NCBI GenBank assembly: GCA_028697555.1
Contig: JAQVEX010000027.1
Location: forward strand, 1-34,646
Length of the DNA stretch: 34,646 nt
Direction: 5' to 3'
From: Lentimicrobiaceae bacterium
GTDB lineage: Bacteria; Bacteroidota; Bacteroidia; Bacteroidales; UBA4417
The notes under the pieces are model-generated. The model had not been told where the DNA came from and ran no database searches. It was given only the letters and a program-made list of their open reading frames with translations. Both the position numbers and the translations under genes were made by a program. This document shows positions 6,968-33,452 of the stretch, one piece after another; the stretch's first letter is position 1, and every line of letters begins with the position of its first letter.

Positions 6968-7061
6968 GTTGAAGCTATGAACCATAAATCTTATAAAATC
7001 TAAAAGTTAAGGGCAACTATGATAAAAAAGAACAAAAAAACGTATTTTAAATTATTTAATC
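6968..7061 (+). repeat. Conserved array spacer between copies 1 and 2
   Basis: This spacer is nearly identical to that at 5218-5311, including TTAAGGGCAACTATGATA and ACGTATTTTAAATTATTTAA just before the ATG. The close match, together with near-identical signal-peptide codons in copies 1 and 2, points to recent duplication or conversion of the 5' part. Confidence 0.8.
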
Positions 7062-8717
7062 ATGAAAACAACAAAGTTGATTATAGCAATTCTTGTTGCA
7101 ATTGCTACACAAAGGGCTATGTCGCAGCAACAAACCGTCGGGATATTTTTCAACACTCCTGAATCATTCAACGGTTACACTCTATTCTCGCCTATAGCAG
7201 GAACTACGACTTACTTGATAGATAATTGTGGCGAAGTTGTAAAAACATGGGAATCTGACAGGACTCCGGGTCTTAAAGCATATTTAACTGCTGATGGCGA
7301 TTTGATAAGAGGGAAGTCGGTGGAAAATCCTGTTTTTCACGGAAGATCAAGCGGAGCAATGGAAGTTTTTAATTGGGAGGGAGAACGAATTTGGGAATAC
7401 TCCATTTCAAACAACATCAATTGTCAGCACCACGATATTGTGCGTTTGCCCAATGGGAACTTTTTGCTTATTGTATGGGATCTTCGTACTAGCGAAGAAG
7501 CTCTCCGGGTTGGCAGGGTTAATGTTTCAAGAGATATTTGGTCTGAAAAAATTGTAGAAGTACAACCCGACTACGAAAACGGTGGTGGCACAATAGTTTG
7601 GGAATGGAAAGTATGGGATCATTTAATCCAAGATGTTAACCCCAACATAGCTAATTATGGCGTTGTTGCTGACAATCCGCAACGCATAGATATTAACTAT
7701 TTGGGAGAAGACCCATTCTCTGTCGATTGGCTTCATTTCAACAGTCTCGATTACAATGTCGAACTAGACCAAATAGTTATCAGTGTGCACAATTTGCACG
7801 AAATATGGATAATTGACCACTCAACCACAACTGAAGAAGCAGCTTCAAGCTCGGGTGGTAATTACGGAAAGGGTGGAGATTTACTCTATCGTTGGGGAAA
7901 TCCTTTAGCATACAAAAGAGGCACAGTAAACGACCAAAAATTATTTTTGCAACACGATGCAAGTTGGATACCCAAAGGACAAATGGATGAAGGTATGATT
8001 ATGATTTTTAATAATAGAACGGGAACTCCTTACGGTCTCGACTACTCTTCTGTTGATGTTATTGACCCGCCTTTGTTAAACGACGGTAATTATTTATTTG
8101 AAAATGCAGCTTACGGTCCAGCCGAAACGCATTGGACTTATACAGCCGAAAATCCAACCGATTTTTACTCCGATCTTATTTCAGGTGCACGCCGACTACC
8201 CAACAATAATACACTTATATGCGAAGGCATGTCGGGAAGACTTTTTGAAGTTGATTACGACGGCAATATTGTTTGGCAATACGTAAATCCTGTGGGAGTC
8301 AATGGTATTACACCTCAGTACGCTCAACCTCAAGTAAACCCTGTTTTTAAAATAGATAGATACGCTCCTGATTTTGAAGGGTTTGAAGGTCGTGAGCTCA
8401 TACCACAAGGGCATATAGAACCTGGAACATTTGTTGAATGCGAAATTTACGATGGCACTGATATTGAAATGTTATACGCTGACTATAATTTTAACGTGTT
8501 CCCAAATCCGGCAAGTTCATCGCTTAACGTACAGTGGGATTATACAAATGTTGATGAAATACAATTAAGCGATATAAATGGAAATTTAGTAATAGGAACT
8601 CAGGCACATACAAACAGTACAGTCCTTGATGTTAGTTGCATCAGCGAAGGCGTGTATGTAGTTTCCTTGTTATCTAAAGGCTATTTAATTTCGAGCGAGC
8701 AAGTTATAATTATGTAA
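7062..8717 (+). CDS. Arylsulfotransferase-like T9SS protein, array copy 2
   Basis: This copy has 551 residues with the same layout as copy 1: signal peptide, propeller, sorting domain starting at FNVFPNPASS. It has CQHHDI, WLHFNS, SVHNLHEIW and QHDASW. It differs from the other five in the GGNCGKGG segment, where Cys is replaced by Tyr (GGNYGKGG). Its variants VFHGRSSGAMEVF, EVQPDYENG, DVNPNIANYG, EIYDGTDIE and the ending SSEQVIIM are shared with copy 6 only, so these two are sister copies although they are the farthest-separated such pair. It ends in Met rather than Lys or Arg. The spacer after it (8718-8770) is unlike the others. Confidence 0.85.
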   Translation: MKTTKLIIAILVAIATQRAMSQQQTVGIFFNTPESFNGYTLFSPIAGTTTYLIDNCGEVVKTWESDRTPGLKAYLTADGDLIRGKSVENPVFHGRSSGAMEVFNWEGERIWEYSISNNINCQHHDIVRLPNGNFLLIVWDLRTSEEALRVGRVNVSRDIWSEKIVEVQPDYENGGGTIVWEWKVWDHLIQDVNPNIANYGVVADNPQRIDINYLGEDPFSVDWLHFNSLDYNVELDQIVISVHNLHEIWIIDHSTTTEEAASSSGGNYGKGGDLLYRWGNPLAYKRGTVNDQKLFLQHDASWIPKGQMDEGMIMIFNNRTGTPYGLDYSSVDVIDPPLLNDGNYLFENAAYGPAETHWTYTAENPTDFYSDLISGARRLPNNNTLICEGMSGRLFEVDYDGNIVWQYVNPVGVNGITPQYAQPQVNPVFKIDRYAPDFEGFEGRELIPQGHIEPGTFVECEIYDGTDIEMLYADYNFNVFPNPASSSLNVQWDYTNVDEIQLSDINGNLVIGTQAHTNSTVLDVSCISEGVYVVSLLSKGYLISSEQVIIM

Positions 8718-8770
8718 TTAAGTTTAATTTTGTAACAAGCAGTTGAATAATGAATATTAAATCATAATTT

Positions 8771-10426
8771 ATGAAAAAAACAAAGTTAATTTTGGTATTT
8801 ATAGCTACATTAATCACACAAGCGGCTATTTCGCAGCAACAAACCGTAGGAATATTTTTTAATACTCCTGAGGCATTCAATGGCTACACTCTTTTCTCGC
8901 CTTTAGCCGGAACCACAACTTACTTGATAGATAATTGCGGAGAAGTAGTAAACAAGTGGGTATCGGAGCGAAAAGCAGGTCGAATAGCACATATAACTCC
9001 CGAAGGCAATTTGGTTAGAGCCACAACATCCGAAAATACGGTTTTTAATGGGGACTGGGGTGGAGGAATAGAAGTTTTTAATTGGGATGGAGAATTAATT
9101 TGGGAATACTTTATCTCAGATAGTCTTAATTGTCGACATCACGATATTAAATGTTTGCCTAATGGAAACATTTTAGCTATTTCGTGGGAGTTCCGTACTG
9201 CCGAAGAAGCTATGCAGGCTGGCAGGGTTAACGCCCAAAGTGAGGTTTGGTCAGAAACTATTGTAGAAATAAAACCCGATTTTGAAAACGGAGGTGGCAC
9301 CATAGTTTGGGAATGGAAAGCATGGGATCATTTAATTCAAGATGTTGACCCAAGCATTGATAACTACGGCGTTATTGCCGACAATCCGCAACGAATAGAT
9401 ATTAACTTTTTGGGCGAAAATTCACTCGCTTCAAACTGGCTTCACTTTAACGGTATCGACTATAATGCCGAATTAGACCAGATAGCTATCAGTGTGCATC
9501 AATTTAGCGAAATATGGATAATAGACCACTCAACAACGACCGAAGAAGCAGCTTCAAGCATAGGTGGTAATTGCGGGAAAGGAGGTGATTTGCTTTATCG
9601 TTGGGGAAATCCCCAGGCATATAAAAGAGGTACCGAAAGTGATAGGAAACTATTTTTGCAACACGATCCTAATTGGATACCCAAAGGGCAAATGGATGAA
9701 GGTATGATTATGATTTTCAACAATAGAGCAGGAACCCCTTATGGTATTGATTATTCATCTGTTTATGTTATTGACCCACCTTTGTTAGACGACGGAAATT
9801 ATTTGTTAGAGAATACAGCTTACGCTCCAGCCGAACCACATTGGAGCTATACAGCTGAAAATCCAACCGATTTTTATTCTGCGTTTATTTCCGGAGCAAG
9901 CCGACTCCCTAACAACAACACCCTTATATGTGCCGGAAGGTCAGGAAGATTTTTCGAAATTGATTACGATGGTAATATTGTTTGGGAGTATGTAAATCCT
10001 GTAGCCACGAATGGTATTACGCCTCAGTACGCTCAACCGCAGTTAAATACTGTTTTTAAAATAAAAAGATATGCTCCCAATTTTGAAGGGTTTGTAGGAC
10101 GCCAACTTATTCCGCAAGGGCATATAGAGCAGGGTACAACTACAGAATGCGAAATATACAGCGGTGCTAATGTTGAGAAAATTTACATCAACGGCAATTT
10201 TTACGTGTTCCCAAATCCGGCAAGTTCGTTGCTTAACGTACAGTGGGATTATACAAATATTGATAAAATACAACTTACCGATATAAAAGGAAATATACTA
10301 ATAGAAACTTCGGCATACACTAACAACACAGTAATTGATGTTAGCTGTTTTAACGAAGGAGTATATATAATTTCCTTGTTAAATAAGGGCTATTTGGTAT
10401 CGAGCAAACAATTTGTTGTAAGGTAA
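8771..10426 (+). CDS. Arylsulfotransferase-like T9SS protein, array copy 3
   Basis: This copy has 551 residues with signal peptide, propeller and a T9SS sorting domain starting at FYVFPNPASS. Key segments are NCRHHDIKCLPNG, WLHFNGID, SVHQFSEIW and QHDPNW. It shares RVNAQSEVW and the C-terminal type EIYSGANVEK...GNFYVF with copies 4 and 5. It is the only copy not preceded by the conserved spacer: the 53 bp at 8718-8770 are different and resemble the DNA just after copy 6 (an AAGTTT-ATTTTG-AACAA pattern). The junction between copies 2 and 3 therefore looks like a boundary between two duplicated blocks. It has an ICAGRSG segment where most copies have ICEG. Confidence 0.85.
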   Translation: MKKTKLILVFIATLITQAAISQQQTVGIFFNTPEAFNGYTLFSPLAGTTTYLIDNCGEVVNKWVSERKAGRIAHITPEGNLVRATTSENTVFNGDWGGGIEVFNWDGELIWEYFISDSLNCRHHDIKCLPNGNILAISWEFRTAEEAMQAGRVNAQSEVWSETIVEIKPDFENGGGTIVWEWKAWDHLIQDVDPSIDNYGVIADNPQRIDINFLGENSLASNWLHFNGIDYNAELDQIAISVHQFSEIWIIDHSTTTEEAASSIGGNCGKGGDLLYRWGNPQAYKRGTESDRKLFLQHDPNWIPKGQMDEGMIMIFNNRAGTPYGIDYSSVYVIDPPLLDDGNYLLENTAYAPAEPHWSYTAENPTDFYSAFISGASRLPNNNTLICAGRSGRFFEIDYDGNIVWEYVNPVATNGITPQYAQPQLNTVFKIKRYAPNFEGFVGRQLIPQGHIEQGTTTECEIYSGANVEKIYINGNFYVFPNPASSLLNVQWDYTNIDKIQLTDIKGNILIETSAYTNNTVIDVSCFNEGVYIISLLNKGYLVSSKQFVVR

Positions 10427-10516
10427 TTTGGATCTGTGAAACATGTATCTTAAAATATAGTAGTTAAGGGCAACTATGATATAAAAGAAAAAAAACGTAT
10501 TATAAATAATTTAGTC
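10427..10516 (+). repeat. Conserved array spacer between copies 3 and 4
   Basis: The spacer keeps GTTAAGGGCAACTATGATA and ACGTATTATAAATAATTTAG before the ATG. The variant TATTATAAATAATTTAG is shared with the spacer before copy 5, grouping these two. Confidence 0.75.
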
Positions 10517-12178
10517 ATGAAAACAACAAAGTTAATTTTAGCTTTTTTTGTGGCGTTTGCCATGCAAAAGGCTATGTCGCAAGAGCAAACCGTAGGTATA
10601 TTTTTAAATACTCCTGATGCATTCAATGGTTACACTCTTTTCTCTCCTCAACTAAACACAACAACTTACTTAATAGATAATTGTGGCGAAGTTGTAAATA
10701 AGTGGGAATCGGATCGAACTCCGGGACGAATGGCATTTTTAACTCCCGATGGCAATTTAGTCAGAGCAAAGGCAACTGACAATACTGTTTTTAAAAATGG
10801 GATAGCTGGTGGAGCTATAGAAATTTTTAATTGGGAAGGAGAACGAATTTGGGAATACTTTATCTCAGATGATTTTCAATGTCAGCACCACGATATTGAA
10901 TATTTGCCTAATGGAAACATTTTGGCTATTGTATGGGAATATCGTACCCTCGAAGAGCTTATTCAGGTGGGCAGGGTCAATGCTCAAAGTGATATTTGGT
11001 CTGAAAAAATTGTAGAAATTCAACCCGATTTTGAAAATGGAATTGGCACAATAGTTTGGGAATGGAGAGTGTGGGATCACTTAATTCAAGATGTTGACCC
11101 TAGCATTGATAACTACGGTGTTGTTGAAGACAATCCGCAACGAATAGATATTAACTATTTGGCGGAAAAAGCTTCAGTTGATTGGCTTCACTTTAATGGT
11201 ATAGATTATAATGCCGAATTAGACCAAATAGCTATTAGCATACACCAATTTAGTGAAATGTGGATAATAGACCATTCAACAACAACTGAAGAAGCTGCTA
11301 CAAGCGTAGGTGGTAATTGCGGAAAGGGTGGCGACTTGCTTTATCGCTGGGGAAATCCTATAGCATACAAAAGAGGTACCGCAAATGACCAAAAATTGTT
11401 TATGCAGCATGATGCTAATTGGATACCAGATGGACAAATGGATGGAGGTATGATTATGATATACAGCAATAGAGCAGGGACTCCTTATGGTCTTCAATAT
11501 TCTTCTGTTGTTGTTATTGACCCACCTTTATTAGAAGGCGGCAATTATTTATTTGAGAATACTGCTTACGCTCCAGCCGATTTTCATTGGTCTTATACAG
11601 CTGAAAATCCAAGCGATTTTTATTCTGCACTTTTTTCAGGAGCAAACCGACTTCCCAATAATAATACTATTATTTGTGAAGCATTGACAGGACGCCTTTT
11701 TGAAGTCGATTACGATGGAAATATTGTCTGGCAGTATATAAATCCTGTGGCACAGGACGGTATAATTCCTCAGTACGTTCAACCTCAAGCTAACACAAAT
11801 AGCGTTTTTCAAACCGTAAGGTACGCACCGGATTTTGAAGGATTTATAGGACGTGAGCTTATACCTCAAGGACACATAGAGCCTGGTACAACCACAGATT
11901 GTGAAATATACAGCGGTGCTAATGTTGAGAAATTATACGCCGACGGCAATTTTTACGTATTCCCAAATCCGGCAAGTTCGTTGCTCAACGTACAGTGGGA
12001 TTACACAAATATTGATAAAATACAACTTACCGATATAAAAGGAAATATATTAATAGAAACTCCGGCATACACTAATAGTTCAGTAATTGATGTTAGCTGT
12101 TTTAACGAAGGAGTATATATAATTTCCTTACTGAATAAGGGCTATTTGGTATCGAGCAAGCAAGTTATTATTAAGTAA
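10517..12178 (+). CDS. Arylsulfotransferase-like T9SS protein, array copy 4
   Basis: At 553 residues this is the longest copy. The propeller segments are QCQHHDIEYLPNG, WLHFNGID, SIHQFSEMW, QHDANW and LPNNNTIICEA. The sorting domain begins at FYVFPNPASS and is almost the same as in copy 3 (EIYSGANVEKLY, TNIDKIQLTDIKGN). It has an extra residue around FKNGIAGGA, a change shared in length with copy 5 (FLNGISGG), and two extra residues near QANTNSVFQ. The acceptor-loop segment WIPDGQMDGG differs from WIPKGQMDEG in all the others, which may alter a surface loop near the active-site His. Otherwise intact. Confidence 0.85.
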   Translation: MKTTKLILAFFVAFAMQKAMSQEQTVGIFLNTPDAFNGYTLFSPQLNTTTYLIDNCGEVVNKWESDRTPGRMAFLTPDGNLVRAKATDNTVFKNGIAGGAIEIFNWEGERIWEYFISDDFQCQHHDIEYLPNGNILAIVWEYRTLEELIQVGRVNAQSDIWSEKIVEIQPDFENGIGTIVWEWRVWDHLIQDVDPSIDNYGVVEDNPQRIDINYLAEKASVDWLHFNGIDYNAELDQIAISIHQFSEMWIIDHSTTTEEAATSVGGNCGKGGDLLYRWGNPIAYKRGTANDQKLFMQHDANWIPDGQMDGGMIMIYSNRAGTPYGLQYSSVVVIDPPLLEGGNYLFENTAYAPADFHWSYTAENPSDFYSALFSGANRLPNNNTIICEALTGRLFEVDYDGNIVWQYINPVAQDGIIPQYVQPQANTNSVFQTVRYAPDFEGFIGRELIPQGHIEPGTTTDCEIYSGANVEKLYADGNFYVFPNPASSLLNVQWDYTNIDKIQLTDIKGNILIETPAYTNSSVIDVSCFNEGVYIISLLNKGYLVSSKQVIIK

Positions 12179-12271
12179 GTTGAGGCTATGAACTATATAT
12201 CTTATAAAATCTAAAAGTTTAGGGCAACTATGATATAAAAGAACAAAAAACGTATTATAAATAATTTAGTC
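12179..12271 (+). repeat. Conserved array spacer between copies 4 and 5
   Basis: It matches the other spacers, with GTTTAGGGCAACTATGATA and ACGTATTATAAATAATTTAG before the ATG. It starts GTTGAGGCTATGAAC, closest to the spacer after copy 1. Confidence 0.8.
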
Positions 12272-13930
12272 ATGAAAACAACAAAGTTAATTTTAGTATT
12301 TTTAGTTGCGTTTGCTGCGCAAACGGCTATGTCGCAACAACAAACCGTAGGAATATTTTTTAATACTCCCGAGGCGTCCAATGGTTATACTCTTTTAGCG
12401 CCTTTATTTGACTCTACAACTTACTTGATAGATAATTGTGGAGAAGTAGTGCACAAGTGGGAATCGGATCGGCTCCCAGGTTTAGCTGCATATATAACAA
12501 CCGACGGCAATTTGGTTAGAGGAAAGGCGTCGGACAATACAGTTTTTCTTAATGGGATATCAGGTGGAATAATAGAAACTATTAGTTGGGAAGGAGAACG
12601 AATTTTTGAATACACTATCTCAGATGGTTATTATTGTCAGCATCACGATATAGAATGCTTACCCAACGGGAACATTTTGGCTACTGTGTGGGAGTACCGC
12701 AGTGTAGAAGAAGTTATTCAGGCAGGCAGGGTTAATGCCCAAAGCGAGGTTTGGTCGGAAAATATTGTAGAAATACAACCTGACTACGAAAACGGAACCG
12801 GCACAATAGTTTGGGAATGGAAGGCATGGGATCACTTAATTCAAGATGTTGACCCTAACCTTGATAACTACGGTGTTATTGCAGACAATCCGCAGCGTAT
12901 AGACATTAACTATTTGGGCGAGAAAGAAACCTCTGTTGATTGGCTTCATTTCAATGGTATAGATTATAATGCTGAGTTAGACCAAATAATCGTTAGCGTA
13001 CATAATTTTAGTGAAATATGGATAATAGACCACTCAACAACAACTGAAGAAGCAGCTACTAGTTTAGGTGGTAATTGCGGAAAAGGTGGCGATTTGCTTT
13101 ATCGTTGGGGAAATCCATTGGCATACAAGAGTGGTACCGAAAGCGACCAAAAACTGTTTATGCAGCATGATGCTAATTGGATACCTAAGGGGCAGATGGA
13201 TGAAGGTATGATTATAGTTTATAACAATCAAGCTGGCATACCTTACGGTCTTGAATATTCTTCCATTGATGTTATTGACTCACCATTGTTAGAAGATGGT
13301 AATTATTTGTATAAGAACGCAGCTTACGCTCCAGCCGATTTTCATTGGACTTATACAGCGCAAAATCCAAGCGATTTATACTCTGTGCTTTTTTCCGGAG
13401 CAAGTCGACTTCCCAATAACAATACTCTTATAAGCGAAGGCACGTCGGGAAAACTTTTCGAGATTGATTACGACGGCAATATAGTTTGGGAATACGTAAC
13501 TCCCATAGATAATAATGGCATTATACCTCAATATGCGCAACCTCAAATGAACTATATTTTTAAATCTGTAAGATACGCTCCAAATTTTGAAGGGTTTATA
13601 GGACGCCAACTTACACCACAAGGGCATATAGAGCCGGGTACAACAACAGAATGCGAAATATACAGCGGTGCTAATGTTGAGAAATTATACACCGACGGCA
13701 ATTTTTACGTATTTCCAAATCCGGCAAGTTCGTTACTCAACGTCCAGTGGGATTATACAAATATTGATAAAATACAAATTACCGATATAAAAGGAAATTT
13801 ATTAACACAAACCCCTGTATTTACCAACGGTACAACAATTGACGTTAGTTGTTTCAGCGAAGGGGTGTACATAGCTTCCTTACTGAATAAGGGCTATTTG
13901 GTATCGAGTAAGCAGTTTGTTGTTAAGTAA
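12272..13930 (+). CDS. Arylsulfotransferase-like T9SS protein, array copy 5
   Basis: This 552-residue copy has signal peptide, propeller and sorting domain. Segments are YCQHHDIECLPNG, WLHFNGID, SVHNFSEIW and QHDANW. Near residue 388 it has LISEG where the other copies have Cys (LICEG or LICAG), and the NYLYKNAAYAP and LFDSTTYLID segments also diverge, so this copy is drifting most in the propeller. The C-terminal type (EIYSGANVEKLY, FYVFPNPASS, KQFVVK) is shared with copies 3 and 4. The reading frame is intact, so decay to a pseudogene is not shown. Confidence 0.85.
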   Translation: MKTTKLILVFLVAFAAQTAMSQQQTVGIFFNTPEASNGYTLLAPLFDSTTYLIDNCGEVVHKWESDRLPGLAAYITTDGNLVRGKASDNTVFLNGISGGIIETISWEGERIFEYTISDGYYCQHHDIECLPNGNILATVWEYRSVEEVIQAGRVNAQSEVWSENIVEIQPDYENGTGTIVWEWKAWDHLIQDVDPNLDNYGVIADNPQRIDINYLGEKETSVDWLHFNGIDYNAELDQIIVSVHNFSEIWIIDHSTTTEEAATSLGGNCGKGGDLLYRWGNPLAYKSGTESDQKLFMQHDANWIPKGQMDEGMIIVYNNQAGIPYGLEYSSIDVIDSPLLEDGNYLYKNAAYAPADFHWTYTAQNPSDLYSVLFSGASRLPNNNTLISEGTSGKLFEIDYDGNIVWEYVTPIDNNGIIPQYAQPQMNYIFKSVRYAPNFEGFIGRQLTPQGHIEPGTTTECEIYSGANVEKLYTDGNFYVFPNPASSLLNVQWDYTNIDKIQITDIKGNLLTQTPVFTNGTTIDVSCFSEGVYIASLLNKGYLVSSKQFVVK

Positions 13931-14024
13931 GCTGAATCTGTAAAACATGTATCTTATTAAATCTAGAACTTAAGGGCAACTATGATATAAAAGTACAAAA
14001 AAACGTATTTTAAATAATTTACTC
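13931..14024 (+). repeat. Conserved array spacer between copies 5 and 6
   Basis: It retains CTTAAGGGCAACTATGATA and ACGTATTTTAAATAATTTA before the ATG. Its first part (GAATCTGTAAAACATGTATC) is closest to that of the spacer after copy 3. Confidence 0.78.
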
Positions 14025-15680
14025 ATGAAAAAAATAAAGTTGATTTTAGCATTTATTGCTACGATTGCTACATTAACAGCCATGTCGCAGCAGCAAACCG
14101 TAGGAATATTTTTTAATACTCCTGAGGCATTTAACGGTTATACCCTTTTCTCGCCTCTAACCGGAACTACAACTTACCTAATAGATAATTGCGGCGAAGT
14201 TGTAAACAAGTGGGAATCGGATGCAACACCGGGTTTAGCATCGTATTTAACTCCCGAAGGCAATTTGGTTAGGTGCAAGGCGACGGAAAACGCTGTTTTC
14301 CACGGCAGATCGAGTGGAGCGATGGAAGTTTTTAATTGGGAGGGCGAAAGAATTTGGGAATACGCTATTTCCAACGACACTAATTGTCGCCACCACGATA
14401 TTGAATGTTTGCCTAATGGTAACTTTTTACTTATTGTGTGGGAGTACCATACTCCTGAAGAGGCATCTCAGGTGGGCAGAGTCACCACAGTGAGAGAAGT
14501 TTGGTCTGAAAAAATTGTAGAAGTGCAACCCGACTACGAAAACGGAACAGGTACAATAGTTTGGGAATGGAGGGTATGGGATCATTTAATTCAAGATGTT
14601 AACCCCAACATAGCTAATTACGGCGTCGTTGCAGATAATCCGCAACGAATAGATATTAACTTTATAGGCGAGACTGAAAACTCTGTAGATTGGCTTCATG
14701 CTAACAGTGTAGATTACAATGCCGAGTTAGACCAAATACTTGTCAGCGTGCATCAATTTGGCGAAATATGGATAATAGACCACTCAACAACAACTGAAGA
14801 AGCAGCTTCAAGCTCAGGCGGTAATTGTGGAAAGGGTGGCGACTTGCTTTATCGTTGGGGAAATCCCAGAACGTATAAAAGAGGCACTGTAAGTGACCAG
14901 AAACTATTTTTGCAACATGATGCCAATTGGATTCCAAAGGGACAAATGGATGAAGGTATGATTTCAATATACAACAATAGAGCAGGCACACCTTACGGTA
15001 TTGATTATTCTTCTGTTGATGTTATAAACCCACCTTTGTTGGACGACGGCAATTATTTATTCGAGAATGCAGCTTACGCTCCTGCAGATGTGCATTGGAC
15101 TTATATAGCTGAAAATCCAACCGATTTTTATTCATATAATATTTCCGGAGCAAGCCGACTTCCAAACAATAATACTCTTATTTGCGAAGGCAGGTCGGGA
15201 AGGCTTTTTGAAGTCGATTACGAAGGTAATATCGTTTGGCAGTATATAAATCCCGTAGGCATGAATGGTGTTACGCCTCAGTACGTCCAACCTCAATTAA
15301 ATCTTGTTTTTAAAGTAGAAAGATACGCTCCTGATTTTGAAGGATTTGAAGGTCGTGAACTTATACCGCAAGGGCACATAGAGCCGGGTACATTTGTTGA
15401 ATGCGAAATTTACGATGGCACTGATATTGAAAGTCTATACGCCGATTATAATTTTCACGTGTTCCCAAATCCGGCAAGCTCGTTGCTTAACATACAGTGG
15501 GATTATTCAAATGTTGATGTAATACAATTAAGCGATATAAAAGGAAACTTGTTGGTAGAAATTCCGGCGCACACCAACAGTTCAGTACTCGATGTTAGTT
15601 GTTTTAGTGAAGGAGTGTATATAGTTTCACTGTTGCATAAAGGCAATTTGGTTTCAAGCGAGCAAGTTATTGTTATGTAA
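14025..15680 (+). CDS. Arylsulfotransferase-like T9SS protein, array copy 6
   Basis: This is the last copy, with 551 residues and the same domain order. Segments are NCRHHDIECLPNG, WLHANSVD (Ala for the Phe seen in the other copies), SVHQFGEIW, QHDANW and LPNNNTLICEG. It shares HGRSSGAMEVF, EVQPDYENG, DVNPNIANYG, EIYDGTDIE and the ending SSEQVIVM with copy 2. The sequence after its stop codon also resembles that after copy 2, so both probably derive from a block-terminal gene. Directly downstream the DNA turns into the heptamer-repeat interval at 15700-15980. All the inferred active-site histidines are present. Confidence 0.85.
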   Translation: MKKIKLILAFIATIATLTAMSQQQTVGIFFNTPEAFNGYTLFSPLTGTTTYLIDNCGEVVNKWESDATPGLASYLTPEGNLVRCKATENAVFHGRSSGAMEVFNWEGERIWEYAISNDTNCRHHDIECLPNGNFLLIVWEYHTPEEASQVGRVTTVREVWSEKIVEVQPDYENGTGTIVWEWRVWDHLIQDVNPNIANYGVVADNPQRIDINFIGETENSVDWLHANSVDYNAELDQILVSVHQFGEIWIIDHSTTTEEAASSSGGNCGKGGDLLYRWGNPRTYKRGTVSDQKLFLQHDANWIPKGQMDEGMISIYNNRAGTPYGIDYSSVDVINPPLLDDGNYLFENAAYAPADVHWTYIAENPTDFYSYNISGASRLPNNNTLICEGRSGRLFEVDYEGNIVWQYINPVGMNGVTPQYVQPQLNLVFKVERYAPDFEGFEGRELIPQGHIEPGTFVECEIYDGTDIESLYADYNFHVFPNPASSLLNIQWDYSNVDVIQLSDIKGNLLVEIPAHTNSSVLDVSCFSEGVYIVSLLHKGNLVSSEQVIVM

Positions 15681-24420: not shown

Positions 24421-25587
24421 ATGGAATTTATAAGAAAAAAAATCTCGTTTGTGTTGGTGGCAATTGCGTTGCTGATGAGTTCTTATTTGTTCGGTCAGAG
24501 CAAAAACAAGTGGATGGAAAATGTTTTGGTCGAAACTCGACTTAACTATGGCTTTTTGATAAATCACCATTTGGAAATGGAAATTTATAACAGCCATTTT
24601 CCTATGTTTGAAGTAAATATAGGGAAAGAAACTTTTGGCAAAAAACGTTGGCATTCTTATTATTTGTATCCGTTTTTAGGACTTAGTTATCAGTATTCGC
24701 ATTTGGGCAATTCTAATATTTTAGGGAGCTCTCATGCAGTTTTTCCATATATCAATTATCCTTTGTTTCGCAACGGTCGCGAGTCATTAAATTTTCGTGT
24801 AGGATTAGGATTGGCGTATCTTACCAAGTGCTACGACCGTATTGATAATTACAAGTACATTGCAATTGGCTCGCATATAAATGCGGCAGCCAATTTTATT
24901 TTGGAGTATCGCTACGAAGTTTCAACGCGGTTACAAACTTCAATAGGACTATCGCTAACTCACTTTTCAAACGGTTCTACCAAAAATCCCAACTACGGAA
25001 TAAATATTCCCACAATCGATGCTTCGTTGGCATACCGACTCAAGCGAAAAGAAAATTACAGAGAGTATAAGATACTGCCCGACTTGTACATTTTTGAGTT
25101 TCCAAAACCTAAATCCTTTGATTTTAATGCAAACTTCAACGTTGCCTTTAAGGACATGGAAAACATCAACAACCGAAAATTTATGATTTACAATTTTGCT
25201 TTTACCACAATGAAACGAATTTCGTACAAGAGTAGTTTTGGTGTGGCTCTTGATGTAACATCTCACGGAGCCGATTACTACATGGCAGATTACGATAGCA
25301 TTGAATACAAACGTGAGAGTCAGCTTCTTAGGCTTGGTGGAAGTGCGATGTACAAACTAAGCATGTCGAAATTGCATTACTACGGCGGATTTGGATTTTA
25401 TTTTAGTGGAAAAGTCGTTCTTTGGGAATCGTATTTTAAAATTGGTTTACAGTACGATATAAATGATTTTTTGTTTGCCGATTTAACGCTTAGAACCAAT
25501 TTTGGCAAAGCCGATTTTGTAGGTTTAGGCTTGGGTTATAAGTTTACTTACTATGGAGATGGAAGGAAGCATAGAGGTGGTGGGTGA
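24421..25587 (+). CDS. PagL-like acyloxyacyl hydrolase / outer-membrane barrel
   Basis: I chose ATG 24421 (388 residues) over an upstream TTG at 24313, because it starts a proper signal peptide (MEFIRKK...LFGQ, cleavage near 26). The segment LTHFSNGSTKNPNYGINIP (179-197) matches the lipid A 3-O-deacylase PagL motif HxSN, giving His181 and Ser183 as likely active-site residues. The rest is a series of amphipathic strands, longer than PagL of Proteobacteria but in the range of Bacteroidota relatives. A role in lipid A trimming is inferred. The natural barrel end seems to be GLGYKFTYY; the last residues, ending HRGGG, and the stop codon lie in the GGTGGTGGGTGA start of the heptamer array. Confidence 0.75.
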   Translation: MEFIRKKISFVLVAIALLMSSYLFGQSKNKWMENVLVETRLNYGFLINHHLEMEIYNSHFPMFEVNIGKETFGKKRWHSYYLYPFLGLSYQYSHLGNSNILGSSHAVFPYINYPLFRNGRESLNFRVGLGLAYLTKCYDRIDNYKYIAIGSHINAAANFILEYRYEVSTRLQTSIGLSLTHFSNGSTKNPNYGINIPTIDASLAYRLKRKENYREYKILPDLYIFEFPKPKSFDFNANFNVAFKDMENINNRKFMIYNFAFTTMKRISYKSSFGVALDVTSHGADYYMADYDSIEYKRESQLLRLGGSAMYKLSMSKLHYYGGFGFYFSGKVVLWESYFKIGLQYDINDFLFADLTLRTNFGKADFVGLGLGYKFTYYGDGRKHRGGG

Positions 25588-25860
25588 ATGGTGAATGGTG
25601 AATGGTGATGGGTGATGGGTGATGGGTGATGAGTGATTCGACATTTTCGGTCATTGAGTGCCGATATTGAGCGAAGCGAGATATCGGTGTATCGAAATGC
25701 CGAAAATGGTGGTTGGAAGTTCTGAGTTCTGAGTTCTGAGTCAGGAGTTTAAATACTCGTAACTCGTAACTCCAAACTTAGAACTAACACGCAACTCGCA
25801 CCACGTAACACGCAACCCGCAACACGAATCCGCCAACAGCTAATAGCCAATAGCTAACTT
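25574..25860 (+). repeat. Heptamer-repeat interval R4
   Basis: This 333-bp gap has no gene. The array begins inside the preceding gene and runs GGTGAAT and GGTGATG words, the 71-bp palindromic element (25639-25709), GTTCTGA words (25719-25740), ACTCGTA words (25755-25776), ACGCAAC and CCGCAAC words, and finally GCCAACA/GCTAATA/GCCAATA/GCTAAC words to about 25858. The part at 25715-25788 is an imperfect inverted repeat with 36-bp arms. Confidence 0.85.
25639..25709 (+). repeat. 71-bp palindromic element, copy A
   Basis: The outer arms CATTTTCGG and CCGAAAATG are complementary, as are the inner arms CCGATAT and ATATCGG around a GAGCGAAGCGAG tip. It is identical over 71 bp to 33125-33195. REP-like or MITE-like in form; no coding capacity. 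Confidence 0.85.
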
Positions 25861-25893
25861 TATCGGACAACAATAATTTTAATAATAATTTGT

Positions 25894-25901
25894 TACTTTT
25901 G
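25894..25901 (+). promoter_or_regulatory. Bacteroidota -7 promoter box for the GIN-domain gene
   Basis: TACTTTTG matches TAnnTTTG 19 bp before the ATG at 25921, just after the repeat interval ends. The leader would be short, about 13 nt. No clear -33 element. Confidence 0.45.
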
Positions 25902-25920
25902 AGACCATTACATAATTAAG

Positions 25921-26667
25921 ATGAAAAAACTAAGTTACATACTGATATTATTTGTCGCTGTAGCCTTGTTGAGCTCCTGTTCCGATAGTCATTGGTTTGA
26001 TTTTGCCAAAAGTACGGGCGAAATTGTCAGAATTGAGCGTCCATTGGAAGGCACATTTGACACTTTGGTTTTTAACGATAACATAAACGTTGAGATTACA
26101 ATTGGCAACGAATATAAGTTGGAATTGGAAGGCGGAGAAAATTTACTGCCCGGGATTGAAACTTCCGTTAAAGATAGCACTATTACTTTTTCCAATAAAA
26201 ACAGATTTAATTGGGTTAGGTCGTACAAGCCAAAAATTAATGCATATCTGACTTTACCTTTCATTTCGCAAATGAGATACAAATCGGTAGGCACTATAAC
26301 CAATACGGGTACTATTATGCAACCTTATCTTGATATACTGGGGACAGGCGGTTCGGGTTATATTAAACTTAACCTTAATGTCAACGAACTTAAATTAGCT
26401 TTGGTAAACGGAGCCATTGATGCCGACCTAAAAGGCAGAGTTGGAGCTCTTTACGCTTTTAACGACGGATTAGGCGTTTTTAGATGCTATGAGCTTAATA
26501 CAGGATTTTTGTACATTACTAATAAAGCTGCAAACAACTGCTACGTTACTGCTACTAACACTATTGAATACGTAATTGAAGGCGTTGGAGATATTTACCT
26601 AAAAGGCAATCCACCTAATATAAGCGGTACTGCAAGTGGAGGAGGAAAATTGGTGATGAGTGAATAG
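25921..26667 (+). CDS. GIN-domain (DUF2807) lipoprotein
   Basis: This 248-residue protein has a lipoprotein signal peptide with lipobox LSSC (Cys20), so it is probably anchored in the outer membrane. The mature part matches the putative adhesin-head GIN domain (DUF2807): FDTLVFNDNINVEITIGNEYKLELEGGENLLPGI-type strands, then the repetitive beta-helix pattern with LKLALVNGAIDADLKGRVGAL and YVIEGVGDIYLKGNP. The molecular role of the family is unknown. The last four codons and the stop (GTG ATG AGT GAA TAG) are indistinguishable from the GTGATGA/GTGAATA words of the following heptamer array, so its C-terminus was probably rewritten by the repeat. Confidence 0.85.
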   Translation: MKKLSYILILFVAVALLSSCSDSHWFDFAKSTGEIVRIERPLEGTFDTLVFNDNINVEITIGNEYKLELEGGENLLPGIETSVKDSTITFSNKNRFNWVRSYKPKINAYLTLPFISQMRYKSVGTITNTGTIMQPYLDILGTGGSGYIKLNLNVNELKLALVNGAIDADLKGRVGALYAFNDGLGVFRCYELNTGFLYITNKAANNCYVTATNTIEYVIEGVGDIYLKGNPPNISGTASGGGKLVMSE

Positions 26668-26934
26668 TGGTGGGTGGTGGTTGGAGAATGGTGGTGGGTG
26701 GTGGCTTGTCCCGAGAATTCGGGAGTGGTGGATGGTGAGTGGTGAGTGGTGGCTTGTCCCGAGAATTCGGGAGTGATGGGTGATGAGTGGTGAGTGGTTG
26801 GAAGTCAGGAGTTCTGTCCCGAAGTTTCGGGAGAGTTCTGAGTATCGAGTACCGTGACTCCTAACTCGTAACTCCTCACTCAGAACTAGCCAAAAGCCAA
26901 CGGCTAACAGCCAACAGCTATATTGTTAAATATT

Positions 26935-27660: not shown

Positions 27661-30600
27661 ATGAAAAAAATTGTACTCTTAGCTACATTTATTGTAGGCA
27701 TGGCATTTAGCACTGTTTCTTATGGTCAAACATTAGCATACACGTTTGATCTTAACAACCTAACCTACACACAAGATTTTACTATCCCGAGCTACCCCTA
27801 CGAAATTTATCCAACAGGTTGGAAAGGAATTAAAGCAGGTGGTACGTACCACTACTACGAAATAGGCGAAGATATTCCATTGGATTGCACAACCGGTGAA
27901 GGCGCAGATAATTCTGGCGTTTACCTTGTTGGTCCGCCTTATTATAGTAATTTCACCGAAAGAGCTTTTGGCTCAAGGGCTGATGAAATGATAGTTCCGG
28001 CTTTTGGAGCTGTATTTAAAAACAATACGGGTTATAAAATTATCAAAATTGATTTCTCGGGTTTTTGCGAACAATGGCGTACCGGAGGTTACTCTTACGT
28101 TCATGAAATTACATATTTTGAAATTAGCTTTAATGCTAACGACCTTTACGATCCTGATGCAACTTGGATAAAATTAAGCAGTTTTGACCTTAAAGAAATT
28201 AGACATGATCTTTCGACCGCATCACAAGGTATAGATGGTAACTTGGATGATAACAGGGAATATATTAGTGCAAGCTACGAAAATGCACAGTGGCAACCAG
28301 GCAGTAATATGTGGATACGCTGGACTGATGTCGATGACGATGGCTTAGACGCACTAATGGCTATTGACGACCTTTGTATTACGGTTACTCCTGACGTTAA
28401 GGCTATTCCGCAAGGGATTGCACACAATTTCGACCTTTACAACATGACCTATAATCAAAATTTCGACGGTATGGGAACCGGCGGGACAAACTATCCTACA
28501 GGTTGGTTAGGATTTCAAGGTGGTGGCAACAATCCAATAATGATAGGTACAACCCTTCCGATAGAAGTTACTGACGGCTCAAGTGGAAATGGGGGCATGT
28601 TCAATGTTGGTACATCCGGCGAAAACGATAGAGCTTTGGGGTCAGTATCCTTTTATGGGATGACGGTTCCGGTATTCGGAGCTGTATTAAAAAACAGTAC
28701 ATGCAGAACTATTTCAAAATTAGACTTCTCGGGCTATTGCGAGCAATGGCGTACCGGTGGTATGAGTAGCATAGATGAGGTTCATAAGTTTGAAATCAGC
28801 AATGACGCTACTTGCCTTAATGACACTAGTGCCACCTGGTCAAGGGTGAGCAGTTTTGACCTTAAAGAAAAGTTAACAACCACAAACGGTTCGTACGCAG
28901 TAAATGGTAACTTGGCTGACAACAAGATGCAAATTACTGCATCTGTAATTGTAGACTGGCCACATAACACAAAAGTGTGGATACGTTGGTCTGACGACCA
29001 AGTATTTGCCAACAACTCATTATTAGCTATCGACGACCTTTCAATTACAGCCACTTTGGCAGACCCAGTATTAAACGTTACTCGTCCCGATATAGGGGCT
29101 AGATGGGAACAAGGCTCAACTTACCATATTAGATGGCTACAAGCAAGTATTGTCGATGGTGTTAAAATTGAAATTAAAAATACTGCATCAAGCACTTGGA
29201 ATACCTTAGCAGAAAACATAACTCCAACTAATGGCTTTTGGGCTTGGAACATTCCTGCCGACTACCCAACGGGTACCTATAAAATTAAGTTAACAGCAGG
29301 TTCAAAAGTAGCAGAGAGCGTAATTTTTAATATTGTAGCACCTATCCTACAAGTAGCACATGTATTTGACGTTAACAACGCAACCTACAATGAAAATTTC
29401 GACGGCATGGGACCCACCGGAACAAATTATCTAACAGGTTGGAAGGGAGTTGGTATATATCATGCTGGTGGTAGTAGCAATCTTCTGTTACAAATTTCCA
29501 ACGGTGATCCAGCCGTTGCCGGCGAAGTATTCAATACCGGTTCATCCGGCGATACCGATAGAGCTTTGGGAACAAGAACAAACGAATCACAGTCACGGCA
29601 GCCATGTATCGGAGCTGTATTTAAAAACAATACCGGCTCAAGTATTAAATATATTGATTTCTCCGGTTTTTGCGAACAATGGAGCACAGTAGGATGGAAT
29701 CCTATGTCCGGTAGCTACGATGAGGTTCATGCTTTTGAAGTCAGTTTCAATGCTAGAGATATTGACGATAAATTGGCTACTTGGGAATCTGTTAATTTTC
29801 ACCTTTATGAAATTGTAAAGAATAGTTACCAAACTGTAGCTGTAGATGGTAATTCGGATACTTACAGAAAACCTATAAGTAATAATAATTATTATACAAA
29901 CCATAATTGGGAACAAGGTGCCAATATGTGGATACGCTGGACTGACGACGATCCAAAAAAGGGCAAAAATTCACTACTTGCTATCGACGACCTTTCAATT
30001 GCAGTTACTCCGGCTCCGTTTATAAATGTTATTTCCCCAAAAACAGGAGATAAATGGCAAGGAGGCTCGTACTTTAATATTAAATGGTCGCATGCAGGTA
30101 TGACCGAAGGTGTAAAAATTGAACTAAAAAATTTAACAGCCGGCTCAGAATGGACAACCTTAGCCGAAAACGTACCTATAAGTAAAGGCTCTTGGGAATG
30201 GGCAATTCCGCACAGTCAACAGGTAGCTTCGTACAGAATTAGATTAACAGCCGGTGGAATATCTGTGGAGAGTGAAATTTTTTCTGTTGAAAATAGATAT
30301 ATATTCATTGAAGCTCCCGGAGTTATTGGCGAACTTAATAAATGGGTAAAAGGCACTACACATGATATTGTGTGGGCTATAGCTGAAGTTATGTCGGGTA
30401 ACGTAAAAATAGAACTTACCCGCAATGCATCTGCAGCTAATCCCGTTTGGGAAGTGCTTGTAGCTTCGGTTCCGGTAGCAAACCGAGCTTGGACTTGGAA
30501 TATTACGCAAGACGCAAGCAACGACTGTAAGATTAGAATAACGCATGAATTACGCGATTATTCGGCAGAAAGTGTGACATTTAGTATTATAGACCCTGCA

Positions 30601-32709
30601 GATGTGCCTAAAATATTTATTTCCGAATATATAGTAGGTTCAGGCAATAATAAAGCCATTGAAATATACAACGGTACAGGTGATGCTATTAATTTGCCTA
30701 AATTGAAAGTTCTGGTTTATCCGTCTAATAGCATTTATAGGAGGGAATGGAGTTTTGGAACTCAATACCTTGCCGCAGGAAATGCTTATGTTATATATAA
30801 TCACGGTGCCAATGCAGGTATTAAAGATTACGGCGATGACGAATATTCATATTTATTTGAATCTGTTAATGGTGACGATGCTATTGCAGTTCATTACGAT
30901 GGTGTACTTTGCGATTTGTTTGGAAAAATAGGAGATAATCCTGCTAGCGGAGCTTGGGATGTTGCAGGTGTAGCCGATGCTACAAAAAACAAAACCCTGT
31001 TACGCAAGCTTAATGTAACTAAAGGTAATTACATGCCTAAAAGCTCTTTCGGAACAACAGCCGAAAATAGCGAATGGGTAGTTAAGGAAACGGATTATTT
31101 TGGCAACGTAGGTGGTTTTGGTGCAGTTTTAACACACGGTGCCAATACCGGCTTAGATGCCAGCTACGATTTACCTATAAGCGATGCTATTGATACTACA
31201 TTCAATCTTATTATTAATAATAACACTGTTGATGTAAATTCAAATTTGAATAATGTAAACAATTTAGTACTAAAAGAATTAGGAAATACAACATTTACAA
31301 TTCAACCCAATGTTAACTTAAATATTGCCGGTAGTATTTTTAGTAAGATGCCTATAGCATACCCGCCAAATGCTCCTGCTACTGCCAGCTTTGATGTTTT
31401 AAGCGATAATACGGGTACAGGCACATTTTTACACAATTTTACAGCAAACGGAAATATAAAAAGGTATATTTCGGGCAATGCAATTCTCACTGCAAATTGC
31501 TACCACGGTGTAAGTGTTCCGCTAGTACAAAGTGCAAATCCGCAAAGCGGTCTGTTTATGGGCTCATATTTGTACAGTTTCAACGAATCACTCAACCAAT
31601 GGGAAGGTATGGGTTCATCTACTACTAACGCTTTAGACGTAACCAAAGGATATTTGATATACTATCCCGGCGATAATAAAACATACAATTTTAACGGCAC
31701 TTTTAATTACGACCAATTCACAATACCATACACAGCAACGGATGCAGATAAAGGTTTTAACTTCATACCTAATCCTTATCCTTCGCATATCGATTTTTCA
31801 GAAATTGAAAATTTCCCAGCCAGCTTATCACCAGGTTTTTGGGTATGGGATAATGGCAACTACAGAGCTTATAACGTTCCTGCCGGAACGGGTACAACCA
31901 CAAATTACGATACTATTTCCATAGGTCAGGCGTTTTTCGTTAGAGCCACAGGTGCAGGTATACTGTCACTTACCAATAAATGTAGAGTAGGCAATAAAAC
32001 AGGCAAATTAACACCTTTTTATAGCACGGGTAATCAACGTAACACCTTACGTATAGCCGCCAATGGCAATCAGTTGCAGGACGAAATACTATTTGTTTTC
32101 GATAATAAATGGAATTTAGGCACAGACGAAGGCGATATGGTTAAAATGGTAGGTTCGGAAGAAGCGCCACAACTTAGCAGCATCAACGCCGATAACGAAA
32201 AACTAACGCTTAATACCTTGCCGTTAAATAGGTACGAAACAAATATACCGCTTAACTTTACACTCAGCGCATCAACACAAGTAAAATTTGTAGCCGATAT
32301 CAGTAGTCTACAAAACGATATTACACCTTACTTGATTGACAAAAAAGAAAACAGAACAGTAAACCTACGTCAAAATCCTGCTTACACTTTCAATCATGCA
32401 TACACAGATAACGACAACCGCTTTGAATTAAAACTTGTAAACGCCGTATATTCCACACCCTACGATTTGGCAGACGAAAACATGATTTATGTAAATAGCA
32501 ATAATCAAATTGTTATTTCCATACCCGACATGCAAAACACCAAAACTATGGTCAATATATACGATATGCAAGGTAAGTTAGTTAGCAGCAATTCGGTTTA
32601 TTTGACTGACACCTTCGTAACTCAAGCACCATTTGTTTCGGGTGTTTATATGGTAAGTGTGGTTAATTCAACGCAAACTGTGAATAAAAAGGTCGTTGTT
32701 ACCCGTTAG
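27661..32709 (+). CDS. Giant multidomain T9SS surface protein with lamin-tail domain
   Basis: This 1682-residue protein has a signal peptide at 1-23 (ending SYGQ). Three copies of a beta-sandwich domain of about 215 residues follow (about 26-243, 254-465, 564-784), each with F-PTGW, GAVFKNNTG, IDFSG(F/Y)CEQWR, ATW and MWIRWTD...AIDDL-type segments. This is the sandwich often found with lamin-tail domains and secreted nucleases in Bacteroidota. Three Kre9/Ser-Thr-rich GPI-type Ig-like domains (about 471-561, 788-875, 881-980) contain W-QG-Y-I-W and VKIE(L/I) motifs. A lamin-tail domain spans about 981-1130 (IFISEYIVGSGNNKAIEIYN). A beta-rich region and a T9SS type A sorting domain (about 1611-1682, ending KKVVVTR) complete it. 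No catalytic domain was recognised; an adhesive or structural surface role is likely. Confidence 0.85.
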   Translation: MKKIVLLATFIVGMAFSTVSYGQTLAYTFDLNNLTYTQDFTIPSYPYEIYPTGWKGIKAGGTYHYYEIGEDIPLDCTTGEGADNSGVYLVGPPYYSNFTERAFGSRADEMIVPAFGAVFKNNTGYKIIKIDFSGFCEQWRTGGYSYVHEITYFEISFNANDLYDPDATWIKLSSFDLKEIRHDLSTASQGIDGNLDDNREYISASYENAQWQPGSNMWIRWTDVDDDGLDALMAIDDLCITVTPDVKAIPQGIAHNFDLYNMTYNQNFDGMGTGGTNYPTGWLGFQGGGNNPIMIGTTLPIEVTDGSSGNGGMFNVGTSGENDRALGSVSFYGMTVPVFGAVLKNSTCRTISKLDFSGYCEQWRTGGMSSIDEVHKFEISNDATCLNDTSATWSRVSSFDLKEKLTTTNGSYAVNGNLADNKMQITASVIVDWPHNTKVWIRWSDDQVFANNSLLAIDDLSITATLADPVLNVTRPDIGARWEQGSTYHIRWLQASIVDGVKIEIKNTASSTWNTLAENITPTNGFWAWNIPADYPTGTYKIKLTAGSKVAESVIFNIVAPILQVAHVFDVNNATYNENFDGMGPTGTNYLTGWKGVGIYHAGGSSNLLLQISNGDPAVAGEVFNTGSSGDTDRALGTRTNESQSRQPCIGAVFKNNTGSSIKYIDFSGFCEQWSTVGWNPMSGSYDEVHAFEVSFNARDIDDKLATWESVNFHLYEIVKNSYQTVAVDGNSDTYRKPISNNNYYTNHNWEQGANMWIRWTDDDPKKGKNSLLAIDDLSIAVTPAPFINVISPKTGDKWQGGSYFNIKWSHAGMTEGVKIELKNLTAGSEWTTLAENVPISKGSWEWAIPHSQQVASYRIRLTAGGISVESEIFSVENRYIFIEAPGVIGELNKWVKGTTHDIVWAIAEVMSGNVKIELTRNASAANPVWEVLVASVPVANRAWTWNITQDASNDCKIRITHELRDYSAESVTFSIIDPADVPKIFISEYIVGSGNNKAIEIYNGTGDAINLPKLKVLVYPSNSIYRREWSFGTQYLAAGNAYVIYNHGANAGIKDYGDDEYSYLFESVNGDDAIAVHYDGVLCDLFGKIGDNPASGAWDVAGVADATKNKTLLRKLNVTKGNYMPKSSFGTTAENSEWVVKETDYFGNVGGFGAVLTHGANTGLDASYDLPISDAIDTTFNLIINNNTVDVNSNLNNVNNLVLKELGNTTFTIQPNVNLNIAGSIFSKMPIAYPPNAPATASFDVLSDNTGTGTFLHNFTANGNIKRYISGNAILTANCYHGVSVPLVQSANPQSGLFMGSYLYSFNESLNQWEGMGSSTTNALDVTKGYLIYYPGDNKTYNFNGTFNYDQFTIPYTATDADKGFNFIPNPYPSHIDFSEIENFPASLSPGFWVWDNGNYRAYNVPAGTGTTTNYDTISIGQAFFVRATGAGILSLTNKCRVGNKTGKLTPFYSTGNQRNTLRIAANGNQLQDEILFVFDNKWNLGTDEGDMVKMVGSEEAPQLSSINADNEKLTLNTLPLNRYETNIPLNFTLSASTQVKFVADISSLQNDITPYLIDKKENRTVNLRQNPAYTFNHAYTDNDNRFELKLVNAVYSTPYDLADENMIYVNSNNQIVISIPDMQNTKTMVNIYDMQGKLVSSNSVYLTDTFVTQAPFVSGVYMVSVVNSTQTVNKKVVVTR

Positions 32710-32714
32710 AATAA

Positions 32715-32800
32715 GTTGCGTGGTACGTGTTGCGTGTTGCGTGTTGCGTGTTGCGTGGTTCGGGATAACCCGCAACTCGTAACCCGTAACAGCCAATTAA
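32715..32800 (+). repeat. Heptamer-repeat interval R6
   Basis: The 110-bp gap between the giant gene and the small CTERM-like gene contains four to five GCGTGTT heptamers (about 32729-32756), then TTCGGGATAACCCGCAAC, ACTCGTA and CCGTAAC words and AACAGCCAATTA. The GTGTTGC words are complementary to the GCAAC words that follow. The array does not remove the possibility of co-transcription of the two flanking genes. Confidence 0.8.
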
Positions 32801-32819
32801 AAACAAAAAAACATCAGAT

Positions 32820-33053
32820 ATGAAAACAACACTAAAAACAATCTTACTAGTAATTGTACTAACATTAGGCGTACAATTTTATTTATCGGCACAAACGCCA
32901 CCAAAACCACCTACTGAAGCCACTGACGGAGGAAAGAATGGTATCGTAGGAGGAGCCCCAATAGGTAGCGGTATTGTAGTATTGCTAACTCTTGCCGGAG
33001 CCTACGGCGGATATAAATTGTATAAAAACGCAAACGAAGAGAAGGAGGAATAG
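32820..33053 (+). CDS. Small secreted protein with CTERM-like C-terminal tail
   Basis: This 77-residue protein has a signal peptide (1-25, ending LSAQ), a short Pro/Gly-rich middle (TPPKPPTEATDGGKNG) and a C-terminal hydrophobic segment GIVVLLTLAGAYGGYKLYK preceded by APIGSG. The tail recalls the PID-CTERM type sorting signals of Bacteroidota (P-I-D/G-G, then a membrane segment with AYG and basic residues), though Asp is replaced by Gly-Ser and the end NEEKEE is acidic. Such short proteins often follow T9SS genes. The function is unknown and the family link is from memory. The start is an ATG after an A-rich run. Confidence 0.65.
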   Translation: MKTTLKTILLVIVLTLGVQFYLSAQTPPKPPTEATDGGKNGIVGGAPIGSGIVVLLTLAGAYGGYKLYKNANEEKEE

Positions 33054-33124
33054 TGAATGCTTGTCCCGAGAATTCGGGAGTGATGAGTGATTGGTGATTG
33101 GTGGTGAGTGGTCGGTGATGAGTG

Positions 33125-33195
33125 CGACATTTTCGGTCATTGAGTGCCGATATTGAGCGAAGCGAGATATCGGTGTATCGAAATGCCGAAAATGG
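33125..33195 (+). repeat. 71-bp palindromic element, copy B
   Basis: It is identical over all 71 bp to 25639-25709 and in the same orientation, 7.5 kb away. The complementary outer and inner arms are as in copy A. Confidence 0.85.
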
Positions 33196-33222
33196 AGAAT
33201 AGTTTCGAGTTCTGAGTTTTTC

Positions 33223-33256
33223 TCAATAGCCGTGTCTTTAAAGGCACGGCTATTGA
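33223..33256 (+). repeat. 34-bp palindrome
   Basis: TCAATAGCCGTGTCTTT and AAAGGCACGGCTATTGA are complementary over all 17 positions, with one G-U wobble. It lies between the genes at 33053 and 33453, which are convergent. It could act as a bidirectional terminator, although no long T run follows. Confidence 0.7.
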
Positions 33257-33281
33257 AGCGAAATGCCGAAAATAGAGAAGA

Positions 33282-33356
33282 CCCGCTCGCTTTGCAAAAG
33301 CGAGCGAGCGTTGATAAAAACAATCAGCTGGCGCGCTTTTGTAAAGCGTGTCAGCA
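33282..33356 (+). repeat. Paired-palindrome element, copy C
   Basis: The CGCTCGCTTT-GCA-AAAGCGAGCG hairpin is followed, after an A-rich spacer, by a GCTGGCGCGCTTT-TGT-AAAGCGTGTCAGC hairpin. The right arm is the same as in the lone hairpin at 22046-22076. Confidence 0.8.
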
Positions 33357-33452
33357 TACTCGAAACTCGTAACTCCTAACTCCTAACTCAGAACTAACAC
33401 GCAACCCGCAACCCGCAACCCGCAACCCGTAACCCGTAACCCGTAACCCGAA

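Follow-up and report, generated by a model that had tools for sequence, protein, structure and literature searches.

Repeat arrays at gene ends in the window

The window (the whole stretch of 34,646 nucleotides analyzed here) is contig 27 of the 88-contig, 2.33 Mb MAG of a Lentimicrobiaceae bacterium. Between approximately 15.7 and 33.5 kb, several of its spacers are composed of short heptamer runs in mosaic with short palindromes, and Rfam gave no match within the window. Positions 5312-15680 are occupied by six tandem ORFs of 551-553 aa, the last of which has an arylsulfotransferase match and a type IX sorting tail. A sequence-only reading had proposed that arrays cross the stop codons of three genes (encoding a PagL-like protein, a GIN-domain protein, and a 77-residue protein) and rewrite the protein tails. 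All three junctions read in the sequence as it described; the proposal stands for the extension of the PagL-like protein and for the last codons and stop of the GIN-domain gene, but not for the tail of the 77-residue protein, and the median change in tail length is 0.

The PagL-like gene (24421..25587, plus strand; Pfam PF09411, E=1.3e-13), which encodes an outer-membrane protein of the lipid A deacylase family, ends CAT AGA GGT GGT GGG TGA (25570-25587), giving the tail HRGGG. The words GGTGGTG GGTGAAT GGTGAAT at this end are in register with a GGTGAAT/GGTGATG array detected by TRF at 25576-25637, and the last three Gly codons and the TGA (25576..25587, plus strand) are array-derived. Nine orthologues from the same genus or order (39-55% identity) stop 8-10 residues past a GYK/GYR motif; the window protein continues for 14 residues, which makes it 4-5 residues longer than its same-genus orthologues, and its last residues are array-coded. 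This comparison supports the claim of a tail supplied by the array. The composite spacer 3' of the gene (25576..25860, unstranded; TRF and sequence) consists of the GGTGAAT/GGTGATG run, a palindromic element (25639-25708), an AGTTCTG run, and runs of AACTCGT/AACACGC and GCCAATA.

The lipoprotein-like GIN-domain (DUF2807) gene (25921..26667, plus strand; Pfam PF10988, E=2.2e-29) ends TTG GTG ATG AGT GAA TAG (26650-26667), followed by GTGGTGG/GTGATGR words. Its final GTG ATG AGT GAA TAG (26653..26667, plus strand) matches array words over the last 3-4 codons and the TAG, and to that extent the earlier claim is borne out. The position of the stop is unmoved, since array-poor same-genus orthologues end in GKLVKYD, GKLIKYD, or GKLIPLE and the window protein in GKLVMSE, with the stop in the same, conserved column of the alignment. 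The Val is conserved, and MSE stands where relatives have variable residues (KYD, PLE, or KIE). The tail GTGATGAGTGAATAG has a near twin, GTGATGGGTGAATAG, in an unrelated hybrid histidine kinase (G000:C12:31377-33788), whose gene ends GTG ATG GGT GAA TAG. The composite spacer 3' of the GIN-domain gene (26651..26918, unstranded; TRF) contains GTGGTGG/GTGATGR words with CTTGTCCCGAGAATTCGGGAG palindromes, then AACTCGT and AGCCAAC runs.

The 77-residue protein is a PID-CTERM protein (32820..33053, plus strand; NCBIfam NF046080), and comparison with paralogues and orthologues identifies its acidic tail as native. The gene ends GAG GAA TAG TGAATG at 33053; the next 21 bases are the palindrome CTTGTCCCGAGAATTCGGGAG, and the heptamer run proper starts only near 33078, within a composite spacer of 33053..33450 (unstranded; TRF and sequence). 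Three paralogues from the same genome have acidic tails (KNADEEEE, KNSKKDEENVE, and KNSNEDEEQES) without array words, and most same-genus members have charged tails without them. Among the paralogues, the stop is TAG in the two with abutting array words and TAA in the one without. The similarity of the tails and this TAG/TAA pattern mean that no more than the G of the TAG comes from the array, and the claim of an array-coded tail fails for this gene.

The PID-CTERM gene belongs to a module (a large secreted protein with a Por_Secre_tail domain, a spacer, the small PID-CTERM protein, and a second spacer) that is present in three copies with differing arrays (window 27661-33053; G000:C4:8988-14365; G000:C71:2998-7358). 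In the window, the TAG of the large gene (27661-32709) is abutted by a GTTGCGT/AACCCGT spacer (stop and spacer together 32707..32790, unstranded). The C4 copy matches it exactly at the end of the large gene as far as AAAAAGGTCGTTGTTACCCGTTAG, including the TAG; the spacers then consist of unrelated words, and homology restarts about 25-30 nt before the next ATG. Identical gene ends next to unrelated arrays show that the arrays turn over wholesale between fixed boundaries.

Arrays, stop codons, and protein tails across the genome

Array statistics were taken from 730 kb of non-masked sequence from the same genome (31% of the genome), in which mechanically called ORFs of at least 150 aa cover 85.5% of the sequence. 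There are 219 period-7 runs (8.5 kb), whereas the periods 5, 6, and 8-13 each have 6-20, and 8,234 of 8,517 array bases (97%) lie outside ORFs despite the high ORF coverage. In their excess of unit 7 over other lengths and their mostly non-coding location, the arrays agree with the heptameric long simple-sequence-repeat (LSSR) arrays of bacteria. Unit number in LSSRs differs from strain to strain; in this genome, array content differs between paralogous modules. The words include GTGATGR, GTGAATG, GTTGCGG, TTTAGCC, AACCCGC, and GCCAATA, among others. Seeding of each array from the tail of its own gene was rejected because identical words recur across the genome. The same-genus relatives used are Bacteroidales MAGs, one of them labelled Lentimicrobiaceae, and two of them (G004 and G001; L156-L235) have sparser period-7 arrays with other words (e.g., AATTGAC and AACGGAG in G004).

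The arrays are strongly biased towards the 3' ends of genes. Overlaps between a run and a gene end number 18 on the 3' side and one on the 5' side, and an array lies within 15 nt of the stop codon in 43 genes and within 15 nt of the start codon in only 3. Occupancy also differs with gap type, with arrays in 46 of 54 convergent gaps (85%), 32 of 165 tandem gaps, and 14 of 62 divergent gaps. When the 43 genes with a stop-side array this close are averaged, lag-7 identity climbs from 0.42 to 0.63 on reaching the third stop base and is 0.7-0.9 downstream; inside the genes it exceeds background only over the last ~10 bases and has returned to it ~11 nt in.

Stop-codon usage shifts accordingly close to the arrays. 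Of the 43 array-abutted genes (array at most 15 nt away), 29 end in TAG, 8 in TGA, and 6 in TAA, compared with 60 TAG, 33 TGA, and 290 TAA among the 383 genes with no array within 150 nt (TAG 29/43 versus 60/383, Fisher p=2e-12). The difference persists when genes with an array within 30 nt (TAG 37/57) are compared with array-free genes followed by spacers of at least 150 nt (19/92; p=9e-8). Relative to reciprocal-best orthologues from 1.6 Mb of two same-genus genomes, TAA has been lost 16 times and gained 4 times in array genes, versus 15 losses and 37 gains in genes far from arrays (p=1e-4), changes that cannot be dated by a close outgroup because the orthologues are only about 25-80% identical. 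TAA is also rarer beside arrays in G004 (8/26 versus 357/653, p=0.03). Part of the TAG shift may have another cause, since TAG is still enriched (42%) where the nearest detected run is 31-150 nt away. Decayed repeats are visible just 3' of the stop in the 16-60 nt class (lag-7 identity about 0.5), and decayed words that escape the detector probably explain the excess at 31-150 nt. Most abutting stops read TA|G, the first array base being the G or one close to it, and several are a TGA within array words; the usual effect of the arrays falls on the stop codon, not on the protein.

Effects on protein tails are limited to a small number of genes. Array-corpus 10-mers lie wholly within the last 10 coding bases of 15 of 487 genes, against an expectation of about 3.5 taken from positions further upstream; this is a modest excess of about 11 genes, and A/T-rich words matching by chance make up part of the 15. 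Array-coded last codons or residues occur in about 2% of genes. A general lengthening of the tails of array-abutting genes was rejected, as the 18 such genes with an orthologue differ from it in tail length by a median of 0, no differently from controls (p=0.61). Orthologue alignments show three further tails rewritten in place with a change of 0-1 residue, those of an endonuclease/exonuclease/phosphatase (EEP)-family protein (FGDW, length change 0-1), HemW (IVSC, within the orthologue range and 0-1 residue from the usual length), and a 684-aa protein (DAISN, +1 residue versus orthologues). Real extensions of about 5 residues were seen in a few genes, namely the PagL-like gene and the gene for a CCA tRNA nucleotidyltransferase, whose tail RPGVVNGEW reaches about 5 residues beyond the closest orthologues and is longer than 12 of the 13 aligned. 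A function is nowhere indicated for the array-coded tails. Some array junctions could be misjoins from short-read MAG assembly across repeats.

Strand layout and the origin of the arrays

On the plus strand, the left third of array spacers is G/T-rich and the right third A/C-rich in 49 of 54 spacers irrespective of how the flanking genes are oriented, a layout that is absent from array-free spacers; the observation covers the window spacers 25576-25860, 26651-26918, and 33053-33450 and the 54 sampled spacers. A model of paired hairpin arms was dropped because inverted left/right 9-mer matches are not higher within a spacer (1.59) than between spacers (3.11). A near-identical palindromic element of ~70 bp (CGACATTTTCGGTCATTGAGTGCC...ATGCCGAAAATG) occurs inside several arrays (in the window at 25639-25708 and 33125-33194), and its core GACATTTTCGGTCA has 12 copies in the sample with both strands counted. 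With respect to REP/BIME-RAYT systems, which combine a conserved 20-40 bp palindrome with a linked RAYT-type Y1 transposase, the genome contains palindromes and three Y1 transposase matches (Y1_Tnp, PF01797; e.g., G000:C25:15757-16631 and G000:C45:3748-4092), which are candidate REP-type mobilizers of the palindromes.

The observed distribution of the arrays, their 3' bias, the stop-codon shift, the tail alignments, and the replacement of arrays between paralogous modules are probably best explained by fast-turnover heptamer arrays that passively occupy spacers and whose advance into coding ends is cut back by selection, with stops and some tails rewritten as a result. Arrays and short palindromes would expand or swap between loci, into DNA unprotected by selection, and for the copying of array words we infer slippage and recombination as the probable route. 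The 3' side of genes being the least protected, arrays would there reach the stop codon. We further infer that selection would be indifferent to overwriting of the third stop base (TAA to TAG), a silent change that would account for the strong TAG excess, and that deeper intrusion would be tolerated only if the array words give an in-frame stop at or just past the original site. Overruns would end within a few codons, since the unit length of 7 is not divisible by 3 and TGA or TAG occurs in many of the G/T-rich sense words. The expected outcome would be many rewritten stops, about 2% of genes with their last 3-4 residues rewritten, and a few extensions of ~5 residues. Passive filling alone fails to explain the fixed G/T-left, A/C-right layout (49/54 spacers). 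It is also conceivable, with less confidence, that the arrays act as a standing mutational force, driving a genome-wide change from TAA to TAG or TGA and producing new C-terminal peptides, with stop-dense sense words favored because they would render overruns harmless.

A functional role, in which arrays would be positioned or retained at the ends of genes because they serve as three-frame stop cassettes and/or as transcript-end structures replacing ordinary terminators, is an unlikely alternative with several properties of the arrays in its favor. The sense (G/T) strand of the arrays is dense in stop trinucleotides (10.2 per 100 nt, compared with 4.5 for the opposite strand and 7.0 for spacers lacking arrays), the slowest frame past the stop closes in a median of 10 codons with arrays versus 24, array spacers fold more stably than their half-wise shuffles (mean z -4.3 versus -1.3), and 85% of convergent gaps have an array. 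However, most tandem gaps are without arrays, and divergent gaps, which have no stop codon nearby, show the same layout, so stop supply cannot set the orientation. The TA|G junctions seen at most abutting stops would also arise if a MITE or REP-like mobile element, served by a Y1 transposase, inserted preferentially at the TA of stop codons; the three Y1_Tnp matches and the palindromes embedded in the arrays agree with such an insertion. It is nevertheless quite improbable, given that no common element ends or target duplications were seen by eye, that words and right ends vary between loci, that paralogous modules carry wholly different arrays at the same boundary, and that several stops are TGA inside array words. 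Least credible of all is coincidence, by which array words would merely resemble ordinary coding tails and three chance matches would have been picked. Although this is true of the 77-residue case, and some of the 10-mer matches are A/T-rich chance words, it is opposed by the excess of 15 genes over about 3.5 expected in the last 10 coding bases, by the PagL-like and CCA-transferase tails that outrun nearly all orthologues, and by the TAG excess (p=2e-12).

Relation to known repeats and significance

Heptamer arrays that overlap stop codons have already been published (PMC4679880). In Beggiatoaceae, Cyanobacteria, and some Bacteroidetes, TAACTGA repeats form intergenic arrays; at 13 ORFs the stop codon is overlapped by anything from a partial unit to two complete ones, all three frames receive stops from repeats in forward orientation, and the authors infer that insertion succeeds mainly at protein ends. 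The TAACTGA repeats lie mostly just upstream of start codons, whereas the present arrays mostly follow stops, and the TAACTGA word is not that of this genome (0 TAACTGATAACTGA and 0 double units in the 730 kb sample). GGGNATC heptamers in Xanthomonas and Nostoc (PMC4692102) have the G-rich strand coding within 50 bp past stops and non-coding before starts; this geometry, including repeats that overlap the stop, matches the present arrays, and the strand preference resembles the layout seen here. GGGNATC itself is absent here (0 double units), a three-tetrad G4 motif, found in only 7 of 190 G/T-rich runs, was rejected as a common feature, and the present arrays combine several unrelated words per spacer, unlike the GGGNATC arrays. 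In the consulted passages of these two papers, a shift in stop usage and orthologue-checked array-coded tails were not found. Borg tandem repeats likewise turn over quickly and some begin inside gene ends, but their units within Borg genes have lengths divisible by three and yield in-frame repeat proteins (PMC9879509), whereas here the unit is 7 and the coding overlap is a few codons. The rewriting of stops and tails is a minor by-product of an already known type of bacterial repeat, not a new system.

Stop-codon usage is usually attributed to release factors, base composition, or selection. In this genome, TAG is four-fold more frequent in genes abutted by a repeat that spreads through spacers, and a few conserved enzymes carry short tails coded by its arrays. 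Such changes in stops and tails are easily counted as a mark left by the repeat where it invades coding boundaries, and they caution annotators against attaching meaning to the few final residues of proteins from genomes of this type.
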